64,000 nucleotides of DNA from Gluconacetobacter diazotrophicus PA1 5 (GTDB taxonomy: Bacteria > Pseudomonadota > Alphaproteobacteria > Acetobacterales > Acetobacteraceae), in the NCBI RefSeq assembly GCF_000021325.1, contig NC_011365.1:2198001-2262000 (forward strand). The letters run 5' to 3'. Both the position numbers and the translations under genes were made by a program. The notes beneath the pieces were generated by a model. That model saw nothing but the letters and a program-made list of their open reading frames with translations. It did not search any database and had not been told where the DNA came from. Within the stretch, counting starts at the first letter, position 1. Each line of letters starts with the position of its first letter. Positions 3,700-8,122 of the stretch are shown here, in pieces.

Positions 3700-4452
3700 T
3701 CAGCTATTGCCGCTGGCCAGGGATTCCAGCCGCTCCATCGCGGTGATGCGCACGGTGTGGCCCTTGCCGATGGTGATCAGGCGTTCGGTGCGCATCCAGC
3801 TCAATGTCCGGCTGACGGTCTCGATCGTCAGGCCCAGGTAATCGGCGATGTCCGAACGGGTCATGGGCAGGGGGACGTCCCCGGACGGATTCAGCATGTC
3901 GCGCACGCGGTCCAGCAGGAAGCTGGCCACCCGTTCGCGCGCGGTCTTGCGGCCCAGCAGCAGCATCTGGTTCTGCGCCGCCACCAGCTCGTTCGACGCT
4001 TCCTCCAGCAGCCTGCGTTCCAGCCGGGGGAAATCGTCCATCAGGTGCCGCATCCGCGCGCGTGAAAACCGGCACAGCCGCACCGTGTCCACCGCCTCAG
4101 CCCCGAAGGCGTACTGGTCCGTCACCGCCAGCCCCAGGAAATGCCCGGCACCCGCGAAGCCGGTGATCTGCCGCCGTCCGTCGGGCAGCGCCTTGAACAG
4201 CTTCACGTTGCCCGAGGTGATGCTGAAGAAATCGGTCGCGGGGGCGCCTTCCTCGACGAAGGCGCGGCCCGGCAGTACCAGGGTCTCGACCGCCGTTTCC
4301 GCCAGCCGGACGATGTCGTCGTCGCTGATGGCACTGCAGACGCTGCGGGGACGGACGCCGCAGGTCAGGCAGTAACCCGGCTGGCGGTGCGCACCGGCCA
4401 GGATCAGGCGGCGTGGCCGGGATTCGCGCTCACAGGTAGTCTGGTCAGACAT
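3700..4452 (-). CDS. FNR/FixK-type oxygen-sensing transcription regulator
   Basis: 250 residues: cNMP-type sensor domain, long dimer helix and CRP-type helix-turn-helix. Three N-terminal cysteines (C28, C31, C39; C-x2-C-x7-C, the FnrN/FnrL spacing) plus C127 could hold an oxygen-labile 4Fe-4S cluster. The recognition helix TIETVSRTL carries the E-x2-S-R set (E211, S214, R215) that in FNR reads TTGAT-N4-ATCAA. A perfect such site lies about 110 bases upstream of its own start, so autoregulation is likely. The ATG at 4452 has GGGAGGAA upstream; the longer frame would run through the FNR box and is rejected. Likely targets nearby are ompW and hemN. Confidence 0.93.
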   Translation of the reverse strand: MSDQTTCERESRPRRLILAGAHRQPGYCLTCGVRPRSVCSAISDDDIVRLAETAVETLVLPGRAFVEEGAPATDFFSITSGNVKLFKALPDGRRQITGFAGAGHFLGLAVTDQYAFGAEAVDTVRLCRFSRARMRHLMDDFPRLERRLLEEASNELVAAQNQMLLLGRKTARERVASFLLDRVRDMLNPSGDVPLPMTRSDIADYLGLTIETVSRTLSWMRTERLITIGKGHTVRITAMERLESLASGNS

Positions 4453-4561
4453 ACGTCCGGGTTCCTCCCGGTTCAGGCCCGCCGGGGATGGCGGACTGGT
4501 CGTTTCGGTAGACCGGGTCACGGTCCGTCGCAGAAGACTGCAACACAGGATGCGGCCAGAA

Positions 4562-4575
4562 TTGATCTGAATCAA
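4562..4575. promoter_or_regulatory. FNR box upstream of the fnr-type gene
   Basis: TTGATCTGAATCAA is an exact match to the FNR consensus TTGAT-N4-ATCAA. It is centred about 116 bases upstream of the regulator's ATG (4452), so it probably mediates autoregulation. The next gene on the other side starts more than 550 bases away and has its own box. Confidence 0.78.
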
Positions 4576-4576
4576 T

Positions 4577-5042
4577 GCTTATTAAGCCGGGGCGGCGCGC
4601 GCCGGTACTGGACGCCGTAGGGAAGGGTCGCCGGCTCACCGGACCGGCCGCGCGCTGGCGGAGCCGGATTGTTGCGATATCGCCACAATGTATGAATCGC
4701 TTCTCGCGCTATCGGCGATTCTCCTGCTGATGGACTGCGTCATTGGGGGGCGTACCGCCTGTGGCCGAAGAGCAACAGTGACGCGGATTGATACCCTGCG
4801 GTCGCGGTTCTGATATGCGCCTGGGCTGGTACTGGCGGCGGATCGGCACCTCGGCCCGCCCCCGGGGGACGCCTGGCGGACGGGGGCGGCCTTCGCATCC
4901 GATGCCCGGATATTTGGCGTTTCGCGGGCAATTCAGAGGCATCGGCGCGCCGTTGCCGTCCCGCGTGGCCGCCCGCGCGCGAAGGGCCTCCGTGGCAAAA
5001 AAATCGGGGCCGTCTCCGGGGGATCGGACCGCCGGGCCGCGG
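4577..5042. other. Long intergenic region between fnr-type gene and ompW
   Basis: About 465 bases between the two FNR boxes with no convincing gene. Open frames on both strands here (for example 4788-5078 plus and 4740-5177 minus) give Pro/Arg-rich or unfamiliar sequence and lack good ribosome sites. The only clear structure is the 20-bp palindrome at 4669-4688. Confidence 0.5.
4669..4688. promoter_or_regulatory. 20-bp near-perfect palindrome, possible operator
   Basis: TTGTTGCGATATCGCCACAA has a perfect central decamer GCGATATCGC and outer arms TTGT/ACAA, with one mismatched pair (T/C) between. It sits in the noncoding stretch upstream of both the FNR-type gene and ompW. The binding protein is unknown. 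Confidence 0.4.
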
Positions 5043-5056
5043 TTGATTCATGTCAA
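5043..5056. promoter_or_regulatory. FNR box upstream of ompW
   Basis: TTGATTCATGTCAA differs from the FNR consensus TTGAT-N4-ATCAA at one base (GTCAA in the right half). Its centre is about 84 bases before the ompW ATG. A weak -10-like CATGAT (5074-5079) would put the box 35-45 bases before transcription start, the class II activator position. Confidence 0.68.
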
Positions 5057-5133
5057 GGCGACGATAGGGTTCCCATGATCTTTGCGGATAACACGATGTT
5101 GTTCGTCGCGAAAAAACGAAAGGTTCGCACACG

Positions 5134-5928
5134 ATGAAACTGACCCGTACCCTTGCCTTCTCGATGGTTGCCGGCATGGCGGCGCTGGCGCCCGGTGCGG
5201 GACGCGCCCAGACCGCGACGCCGTCGGCCTATGTCAGCGCGCCCGTGGTGGCCCCCGTCATGGCGCCCCCGCCGTCGCATGGCGGCCATTGCGGCATCTT
5301 CGAAACCTGCGCCAGCACCAAGATCGGTCTGGGCAAGGGCGACTTCCTGATCCGCCTGTCCGCGCTGGGCGTCCTGCCTGAAGACCGCGACAGCAAGGTG
5401 TGGGCCGGCGGTGCGGTGCTGCCCGGGGCGCGGGCCAAGACCACGCGCCAGGTCATGCCGGAACTGACGTTCGAATACTTCTTCACCGACCACATCTCGG
5501 CCGACCTGATCGCCGCCAGCACCCGGCATGAAGTCGCGGTCGAAGGCAGCGCCCTGGGCCACATCGATGCCGGCAGCGCCTGGGTTCTGCCGCCCACCAT
5601 CACGATCGCCTACCATTTCCGTCCGCACAAGCGGTTCAACCCGTATGTGGGCGTCGGCGCCACGCTGGCGTTTTTCCACAACGAGTCGCCGGCCGGTGGC
5701 CTGGTGAAGAAGCTGAATGTCGGCACGACCGGTGGCCCGTCATTCAATGTCGGCTTCGATTACCAGCTCGTGGGCAACTGGTTCTTCAACTTCGACGTGA
5801 AGCAGATGTTCATGCGCATGCATGCCTGGGCGAACGATGGTGGCGGCGTCGATGGCGTTCCGCGCATCAAGGTGCATGACTCGCTGGACCCGACGGTGGT
5901 AGGCGCCGGTATCGAATACCGGTTCTGA
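5134..5928 (+). CDS. ompW: OmpW family outer-membrane protein
   Basis: 264 residues with a signal peptide ending near RAQ (about residue 26), then an 8-stranded beta-barrel. GDFLIRLSALGVLPED, the EYFFTDHISADLIAA strand, the FNPYVGVGATLAFF strand and the terminal GAGIEYRF ending in Phe are OmpW signatures. A Pro/Ala-rich, His-containing stretch (residues 30-55) precedes the barrel. OmpW forms a narrow hydrophobic channel; in enterobacteria ompW is activated by FNR under low oxygen. The FNR-like box upstream and the FNR-type gene next door suggest the same control here. hemN starts 5 bases after the stop, so the two genes probably form one transcript. Confidence 0.9.
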   Translation: MKLTRTLAFSMVAGMAALAPGAGRAQTATPSAYVSAPVVAPVMAPPPSHGGHCGIFETCASTKIGLGKGDFLIRLSALGVLPEDRDSKVWAGGAVLPGARAKTTRQVMPELTFEYFFTDHISADLIAASTRHEVAVEGSALGHIDAGSAWVLPPTITIAYHFRPHKRFNPYVGVGATLAFFHNESPAGGLVKKLNVGTTGGPSFNVGFDYQLVGNWFFNFDVKQMFMRMHAWANDGGGVDGVPRIKVHDSLDPTVVGAGIEYRF

Positions 5929-5932
5929 TCCC

Positions 5933-7303
5933 GTGGGGATGCCCTCTTCCGACCTGCTGATCCGGTACGGGGGCAACCTGCCGCGTTACACCAGCTACCC
6001 GACCGCGGCACAGTTCGATGCCTCGGTCGGGGCGGATGACAGCGAGGCGTGGCTGCGCGCCATGGCGCCGGGCACCCCGCTTTCGCTGTATCTTCATGTT
6101 CCCTTCTGCGATGCGCTGTGCCTGTTCTGCGGGTGCAACACGTCGGTGATGCGCGACCCGGCCGGCCGTACGGCCTATGGCGCGCTGCTGATGGACGAAC
6201 TGCGCAGGGTGGCCGGGCGCCTCGGCCCCGACCATCCGGTCCGCCACGTGCAGTGGGGCGGCGGCACGCCGACGACCCTGCCGCCCGAGACCATGCGGGC
6301 CGCGATGCAGACGATCCGCCGGCTCTTCACCATCGAGCGCGACGCGGAAATCGCGATCGAACTCGACCCCCGCCATATGCCCGACGCCTATCCCGACCTG
6401 CTGCGCACGCTGGGATTCAACCGCGTCAGCCTGGGCGTCCAGGACCTGGACCCCGCCGTGCAGACGGCCTGCGGCCGAATCCAGAGCCGTGCCCAGACCG
6501 AGGACTGCGTCCGCCGCGTGCGCGCGGCCGGGATCGCCTCGGTCAATGTCGATCTGATCTATGGCCTGCCGTACCAGACGGTGGACGGCGCGGGCGAAAC
6601 CGCGGCGACCGTCGCCGCCGCGCTGCGGCCCGACCGGCTGGCGGTGTTCGGCTACGCCCATGTGCCCTGGAAGCAGAAGCGCCAGGCGCTGCTGCCCGAA
6701 AGCGTGCTGCCCGGCCCCGCCGAACGGCTGGCGCAACGTGCGCGGATCGATGCGGTCCTGCGTGCCGCCGGGTATCGCGCGATCGGGCTGGACCATTATG
6801 CCCGGCCCGGCGACGCGCTGACCCTCGCCGCCGAAGGCGGCACCATGCGCCGCAATTTCCAGGGTTATACCGTCGATCCGGCCCCGGTCCTGATCGGGAT
6901 CGGCGCCTCGGCGATTTCCTCCTATCCCCAGGGCATGACCCAGAACGCCCTGACCGCCGCCGCCTACGCGCGGCTGATGGGCCAGGGCACCGACACCCTG
7001 CCGGTGGTGCGGGGGGTGCGCCGCACCGATGACGACCGGCTGCGCGGGGCGGTGATCGAACGGCTGATGTGCGACCTGCGGGTCGATCCGGCGGCGATCG
7101 GCGCCCATCATGGCGTGCCCGCGACCTGGTTCGCCGATGCCATGCCCGGCCTGCACCAGGCGGCGGCGGACGGGATCGTGACGCTGGACGGCGCGATGAT
7201 CCGCATGACCGACGCGGGACGGCCCTTCCTGCGCAACATCGCCGCCCTGTTCGACGCGCATCGCGCCCCCCCGGGTGCCGCCCGCCATGCCGGCGCCCTG
7301 TAG
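5933..7303 (+). CDS. hemN: HemN, oxygen-independent coproporphyrinogen III dehydrogenase
   Basis: Radical SAM enzyme converting coproporphyrinogen III to protoporphyrinogen IX without oxygen, in the cytoplasm. 456 residues, the normal HemN length. The cluster motif C59-x3-C63-x2-C66-x-C68 (CDALCLFCGC) includes the extra Cys of true HemN, and the N-terminal YTSYPTA motif, QWGGGTPT, VSLGVQD and DLIYGLP are all present. These separate it from HemW look-alikes. GTG at 5933 or ATG at 5939 may be the start. It is probably co-transcribed with ompW behind the FNR box, which fits a haem step needed when oxygen is low. Confidence 0.95.
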   Translation: MGMPSSDLLIRYGGNLPRYTSYPTAAQFDASVGADDSEAWLRAMAPGTPLSLYLHVPFCDALCLFCGCNTSVMRDPAGRTAYGALLMDELRRVAGRLGPDHPVRHVQWGGGTPTTLPPETMRAAMQTIRRLFTIERDAEIAIELDPRHMPDAYPDLLRTLGFNRVSLGVQDLDPAVQTACGRIQSRAQTEDCVRRVRAAGIASVNVDLIYGLPYQTVDGAGETAATVAAALRPDRLAVFGYAHVPWKQKRQALLPESVLPGPAERLAQRARIDAVLRAAGYRAIGLDHYARPGDALTLAAEGGTMRRNFQGYTVDPAPVLIGIGASAISSYPQGMTQNALTAAAYARLMGQGTDTLPVVRGVRRTDDDRLRGAVIERLMCDLRVDPAAIGAHHGVPATWFADAMPGLHQAAADGIVTLDGAMIRMTDAGRPFLRNIAALFDAHRAPPGAARHAGAL

Positions 7304-7432: not shown

Positions 7433-8122
7433 ATGACAGTGCATGACGTGGCCTTGCGTGATGCGGCCTTGCATAACGGGACCTCGGCGCGGGCCGGAAT
7501 TGCCGCGTCGCTTCGCACGGCGCAGCATGGGACGCGGCCCTTCGCCCACTGGATTCTGGCCGATGTCCTGCCGCCACCCGTCCAGGCGGCCCTGCTGGCC
7601 TGGGACCCCGGGGCCGAGACGCATGGCGGCGATACCGGCGGCCGGCGCGAGGCCCGCAACGGCCGGCGCGTCTTCGTGACCCCGGCCAACCGGCGGCAGC
7701 AGCCCGGCCTGGACATGCTGGCCGACATGTTCGACGCCCCGTCGACCCGCGCCGCGATCACGGCGTGCTGCGGTGCGCACCTGGCCGGAACGGCGCTGCG
7801 GCTGGAACTGTGCCTGGACACCGACGGGTTCTGGCTGGAGTCGCATACCGATATCGGGGCGAAGAAGCTGACCCTGCTGGTCTCGCTGTCCACCGATGCG
7901 GGGGCGGCCGACTGGGGGACCGACCTGATGACGGCGGACGGGCGTGCGGTGGGGCGCGCCAGCGGCGCGTTCAATTCCGGCCTGCTGTTCGTGCCGGGCA
8001 CCGACACGTGGCATGGCTTCGTCCGGCGGCCGATCCACGGCCTGCGCCGGTCGCTGATCGTGAATTTCGTCGGCCCCGAATGGCGCGCCACCGAAGAGCT
8101 GGCCTGCGGGCCGGCCGCCTGA
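7433..8122 (+). CDS. 2-oxoglutarate/Fe(II) oxygenase-like protein
   Basis: 229 residues; I do not recognise a specific enzyme. The C-terminal half looks like a jelly-roll 2OG-Fe(II) oxygenase: H138-T-D140 in the segment ESHTDIGAKKLTLLVSLS, then the strand GLLFVPGTDTWHGF with a distal His (H194, or H202) and R205/R206 as candidate 2-oxoglutarate anchor. Such proteins in alphaproteobacteria often hydroxylate proteins or small metabolites; the substrate cannot be predicted. The ATG at 7433 follows an AT-rich leader. It stands alone between hemN and the ETF genes. Confidence 0.7.
   Translation: MTVHDVALRDAALHNGTSARAGIAASLRTAQHGTRPFAHWILADVLPPPVQAALLAWDPGAETHGGDTGGRREARNGRRVFVTPANRRQQPGLDMLADMFDAPSTRAAITACCGAHLAGTALRLELCLDTDGFWLESHTDIGAKKLTLLVSLSTDAGAADWGTDLMTADGRAVGRASGAFNSGLLFVPGTDTWHGFVRRPIHGLRRSLIVNFVGPEWRATEELACGPAA

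Follow-up and report, generated by a model that had tools for sequence, protein, structure and literature searches.

A predicted FNR-type module of fnr, ompW and hemN in Gluconacetobacter diazotrophicus, with the relic of a lost gene between its two boxes

In E. coli, ompW is under FNR control (PMC4886647). FnrN controls hemN and fnrN itself in Rhodospirillales and other groups (PMC4999443), and in R. sphaeroides FnrL binds upstream of hemN, with ompW listed among the ChIP-mapped regulator targets (PMC4263372). The FNR targets of Sphingopyxis have class II boxes near -41.5, the hemN2 box being at -42.5 (PMC7713065). In Gluconobacter, GoxR controls genes of respiration and redox metabolism, according to a paper that cites Schweikert et al. 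2021 (PMC9429829). An earlier note on the DNA described here had stated that FNR control of ompW and of hemN is known elsewhere, in agreement with these reports (PMC4886647, PMC4999443, PMC4263372).

The window, by which we mean the whole 64-kb stretch of DNA that was analyzed, contains an fnr-type gene together with ompW and hemN, and two FNR boxes link them (Table 1). It is very probable that the regulator controls both ompW-hemN and fnr through these boxes, and the whole most likely serves as a GoxR/FnrN-type module for regulation at low oxygen, a known kind. This arrangement was recognized in the earlier note, with the perfect and the one-mismatch box correctly placed; the note overlooked that box 1 probably lies in an autoregulatory position, and it left out the relic of a lost gene, here called X, that lies between the boxes.

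Table 1. Features of the fnr-ompW-hemN locus, with intact examples of gene X from relatives.
Feature	Position	Strand	Description
Window	2,198,001-2,262,000		Part of a 3.89-Mb chromosome; the genome also has a 27-kb second contig
fnr-type regulator	3700..4452	-	250 aa; Fe-S cysteines and recognition helix
Candidate -10 of fnr	4547..4552	-	CATCCT, putative; 17 nt from TTGATT of box 1
FNR box 1	4562-4575		TTGATCTGAATCAA; 0 mismatches to TTGAT-N4-ATCAA; upstream of fnr
Relic of gene X	4783..4859	+	Intact gene ~155 aa; between the two boxes
FNR box 2	5043-5056		TTGATTCATGTCAA; 1 mismatch; ~85 nt upstream of ompW ATG
ompW	5134..5928	+	OmpW-family outer-membrane protein, 264 aa
hemN	5933..7303	+	Oxygen-independent coproporphyrinogen III oxidase, radical SAM
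Gene downstream of hemN	7433..8122	+	No Pfam match; order hemN - 7433 gene - ETF-QO conserved
Intact gene X, example	L162:5344-5817	-	Others exist too
Intact gene X, example	L087:5232-5735	-	

The regulator, read from an ATG at 4452, has cysteines at positions 7, 28, 31, 39, and 127 and a stretch that includes YLGLTIETVSRTLSW. C28, C31, C39, and C127 are of the 4Fe-4S type and the recognition helix reads ETVSR (E-x2-S-R), so both features named in the earlier note are seen in the translation. The protein exceeds the gathering scores of PF00027, PF13545, and PF00325 (Crp/HTH_Crp_2/cNMP_binding), i.e., a cNMP-binding-like domain and a Crp-type HTH, and residues 27-245, including the cysteine region, match solved FNR-type regulators such as 5e44 (phmmer). 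Of 80 orthologous loci, nearly all retain the C-x2-C-x7-C pattern and ETVSR. These data support an FNR-type Fe-S protein with a predicted cluster that would respond to oxygen. Since it reaches 149 bits against the cut-off of 300 for the NCBIfam FnrL equivalog, it is not scored as Rhodobacter FnrL itself. It is the only Crp/Fnr-family protein in the genome at E <= 0.001, and there is therefore no obvious rival binder for the boxes. In two congener loci (L059 and L060), a repeat rich in Gln and Gly (SRGQ.QGQGQ..) is inserted into the FNR orthologue, after the dimerisation helix and before the HTH domain; the length of this insertion differs between the two genomes.

The ompW product matches PF03922 over positions 2-195 of 195 (E 2.5e-38) and scores below the cut-off of the E. 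coli OmpW equivalog. The hemN product, with the radical-SAM CxxxCxxC motif as CDALCLFC in its translation, scores 398.9 bits against TIGR00538 (cut-off 324.95) and is the only protein in the genome above that cut-off. The start of hemN is either a GTG at 5933 or an ATG at 5939; with the former, 4 bases separate it from the ompW stop at 5928. This short gap makes co-transcription likely, and ompW and hemN probably form one transcript; a probable FNR-controlled operon, as had been proposed from the sequence, is supported. The gene downstream of hemN, whose product appears by eye to be 2-oxoglutarate/Fe(II) oxygenase-like, may extend this operon. Upstream of ompW, a simple pattern search found neither NifA nor sigma-54 sites. 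The genome also has one intact copy of the oxygen-dependent HemF, which suggests that HemN is a low-oxygen alternative. A pseudogene status of hemF, considered on account of a stop inside the Pfam match, was ruled out, as the same end occurs in 13 of 13 genus members with a match. The HemF of the genus (L136:1447-2349) ends in ...PPEV(R/H)WP, shorter than the Pfam model, in all members checked, and this short C-terminus is probably genuine.

FNR sites with at most one mismatch number three within the window, against 0.37 expected, and three were reached in only 1 of 100 shuffles. The third site (1149-1162, one mismatch) lies within a pqqB-like coding region, and the earlier observation that the intergenic regions of the window hold no further site thus stands. 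Genome-wide (3.9 Mb), there are four perfect boxes and no occurrence of a reversed control pattern. The one-mismatch sites number 67 in the genome and are probably due to chance for the greater part, so no regulon is claimed. Another perfect box (L003:1501-1514) separates a GNAT acetyltransferase gene from an OprB-like porin gene that is divergent to it, which is reminiscent of the pairing of X and ompW; further perfect boxes lie near an IS element and rarA (L001) and at the 3′ end of tetR (L004).

The named relatives nearest to this genome are Gluconacetobacter asukensis, takamatsuzukensis, aggeris, tumulicola, and sacchari. The order fnr / ompW-hemN / 7433-gene / ETF-QO is kept in every congener whose locus is complete and in six genomes of two neighboring genera, and both boxes, for which the earlier note had recommended a search of related genomes, recur in these same genomes. 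Box-to-gene distances are similar among relatives, apart from two congeners in which the fnr leader is longer; in the congener L060, box 2 is weaker, with two mismatches. A wider comparison used 80 regions fetched around FNR homologues of family members: a box with at most one mismatch lies no more than 400 bp from fnr in 66 of them (perfect in 38), compared with a mean of 0.28 and a maximum of 2 of 80 loci for shuffled sequence. An fnr gene with adjacent ompW is common across acetic acid bacteria; in many smaller-genome members of the family, fnr has only ompW opposite it, with one box between them and no hemN, and core acetic acid bacteria that lack X still keep a box. The conservation of locus and boxes makes the tidy unit a family trait rather than a peculiarity of this genome. 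The idea of a unit exceptional for an obligate aerobe is not supported, given how common the fnr-ompW pair is in acetic acid bacteria, the control of hemN and ompW by FNR-type regulators elsewhere (PMC4999443, PMC4263372, PMC4886647), and the publication of an Fe-S FNR-type regulator, GoxR, for the obligately aerobic Gluconobacter (PMC9429829).

On the fnr side of box 1, TTGATT and CATnCT are separated by 17 nt, a spacing that is fixed with few exceptions in the genus and two neighboring genera, and TTGATT may serve as the -35 of the best candidate fnr promoter. The -10 elements put forward here match only weakly. A sigma-70 consensus scan of the region detected no promoter, and the CATnCTG element beside box 1 occurs in Gluconacetobacter and the two neighboring genera only, not family-wide, so the placement of the fnr promoter is one that we infer. 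A regulator bound to box 1 would cover the candidate -35 and block fnr transcription, i.e., negative autoregulation, and we lean toward autorepression of fnr rather than activation. Box 2, judged from its position, appears to lie at about class II activating distance, and a conserved TGAT element is found ~18-22 nt beyond it.

Most congeners and members of the neighboring genera have an intact ORF X of about 155-158 aa between the boxes, in the same direction as ompW, and in the named congeners its stop codon falls inside box 2. Its dN/dS of 0.1-0.6, with changes mostly at third positions, indicates a real gene under purifying selection. A known non-coding RNA between the boxes was considered and rejected, given that there was no Rfam match and that the conserved stretch codes for protein in relatives. 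In the window's species X is lost and only a relic is left: a profile search for X found no match in the window and the rest of the genome gave no copy either, while 77 bp in the expected order between the boxes align with X at 77% identity with indels, with a score of 50 bits where the highest of 200 shuffles was 35.6. X has also been lost in G. sacchari. Box 1 stayed perfect in both X-less species, which argues that it serves fnr itself.

More widely, the X profile is present in 51 of 200 family genomes, and in 48 of these, positions compared by hand make X the immediate divergent neighbor of fnr. A box with at most one mismatch lies between X and fnr in 36 of 42 fetched X-bearing loci. A class-wide sample gave X in 53 of 385 genomes, all outside Acetobacteraceae; of the 20 best X loci in these other alphaproteobacterial families, 15 are flanked within 1.5 kb by an FNR-type regulator, and a box precedes X in the majority. 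X itself matched nothing in Pfam, NCBIfam, or PDB sequences. By eye it resembles a GNAT acyltransferase; GNATs were also the best Foldseek matches, at E 0.38 and above for a model with pLDDT 40, and are for that reason not usable. No paper describing the X-fnr pair was found in the literature searched, which covered few subscription journals. X is perhaps a dedicated FNR partner in many Alphaproteobacteria, X and fnr forming a conserved unit of two divergent genes with an FNR box between them, and X might act back on the regulator, on the cluster of the regulator, or on the response to low oxygen. The window, with its ompW-hemN neighborhood, would then show a state reached later, after the decay of X, with box 1 retained for fnr. 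We hold this to be possible rather than probable. The conserved pairing of X and fnr suggests that oxygen control in Alphaproteobacteria has a component not yet described.

In the working that we propose for the module, low cytoplasmic oxygen would let the regulator hold a [4Fe-4S] cluster, dimerise, and bind TTGAT-N4-ATCAA. From a class II-like position at box 2 it would activate ompW-hemN, so that HemN could supply the oxygen-independent step of heme synthesis beside the oxygen-dependent HemF, and the OmpW barrel, of uncertain function, would be supplied together with it. At box 1 it would most likely repress fnr by covering the candidate -35. In most relatives box 1 also lies in front of the divergent X, which this species has lost.

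GoxR is said to be active at high dissolved oxygen. The regulator of the window might likewise be active at normal aeration, in line with the proposal for GoxR, if fast periplasmic oxidation keeps the cytoplasm oxygen-poor; ompW-hemN would then be nearly constitutive, and the module would set respiration and redox balance and be no answer to anaerobiosis. Such a regulator would use the same boxes and the same binding, and the difference concerns the conditions under which the switch is on. The named congeners show the host to be an acetic acid bacterium, and GoxR is cited for control of respiration and redox metabolism genes (PMC9429829); the intact HemF, however, suggests that HemN is dispensable in full air, and on balance we consider activity under normal aeration doubtful, if a serious contender.

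Doubt about box 1 concerns its direction and its beneficiary. It could activate fnr in a positive feedback, or it could once have served only the divergent X and now be a remnant, and its place upstream of X in relatives, between X and fnr in 36 of 42 X-bearing loci, speaks for such readings. Yet it is perfect in both X-less species, X-less core acetic acid bacteria keep a box, and it overlaps the best -35/-10 candidate on the fnr side, which makes activation or a remnant unlikely relative to the autorepression that we prefer. That the boxes arose by chance or have no function, and that the adjacency is accidental, is scarcely credible: with 67 one-mismatch sites in the genome a lone site of this kind means little, but both boxes are conserved in the genus and two neighboring genera, and a box upstream of fnr is found family-wide.

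FNR control of ompW-hemN and fnr would give a probably plant-associated, nitrogen-fixing obligate aerobe a compact low-oxygen circuit. The family also offers a natural experiment on promoter evolution, in which the fnr box is kept and the divergent neighbor varies from X, to X with ompW-hemN, to ompW alone.

The prominent targets of GoxR reportedly are cioAB and the pnt operon, unlike the ompW-hemN of the window. To our knowledge, E. coli ompW neither adjoins fnr nor shares an operon with hemN. The likenesses to these systems lie elsewhere: Gluconobacter oxydans, with GoxR (GOX0974), is like the species of the window an acetic acid bacterium that is obligately aerobic and has one Fe-S regulator of the FNR type (PMC9429829), and E. 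coli FNR controls ompW, as is predicted here (PMC4886647). FnrN and FnrL of other Alphaproteobacteria share with the window an N-terminal cysteine cluster plus a central cysteine and boxes of the TTGAT-N4-ATCAA type, and their targets include hemN and the fnr gene itself (PMC4999443, PMC4263372). In Sphingopyxis granuli, ompW is divergent from ccoN with an FNR box at about -41.5, whereas its partner in the window is fnr instead (PMC7713065).
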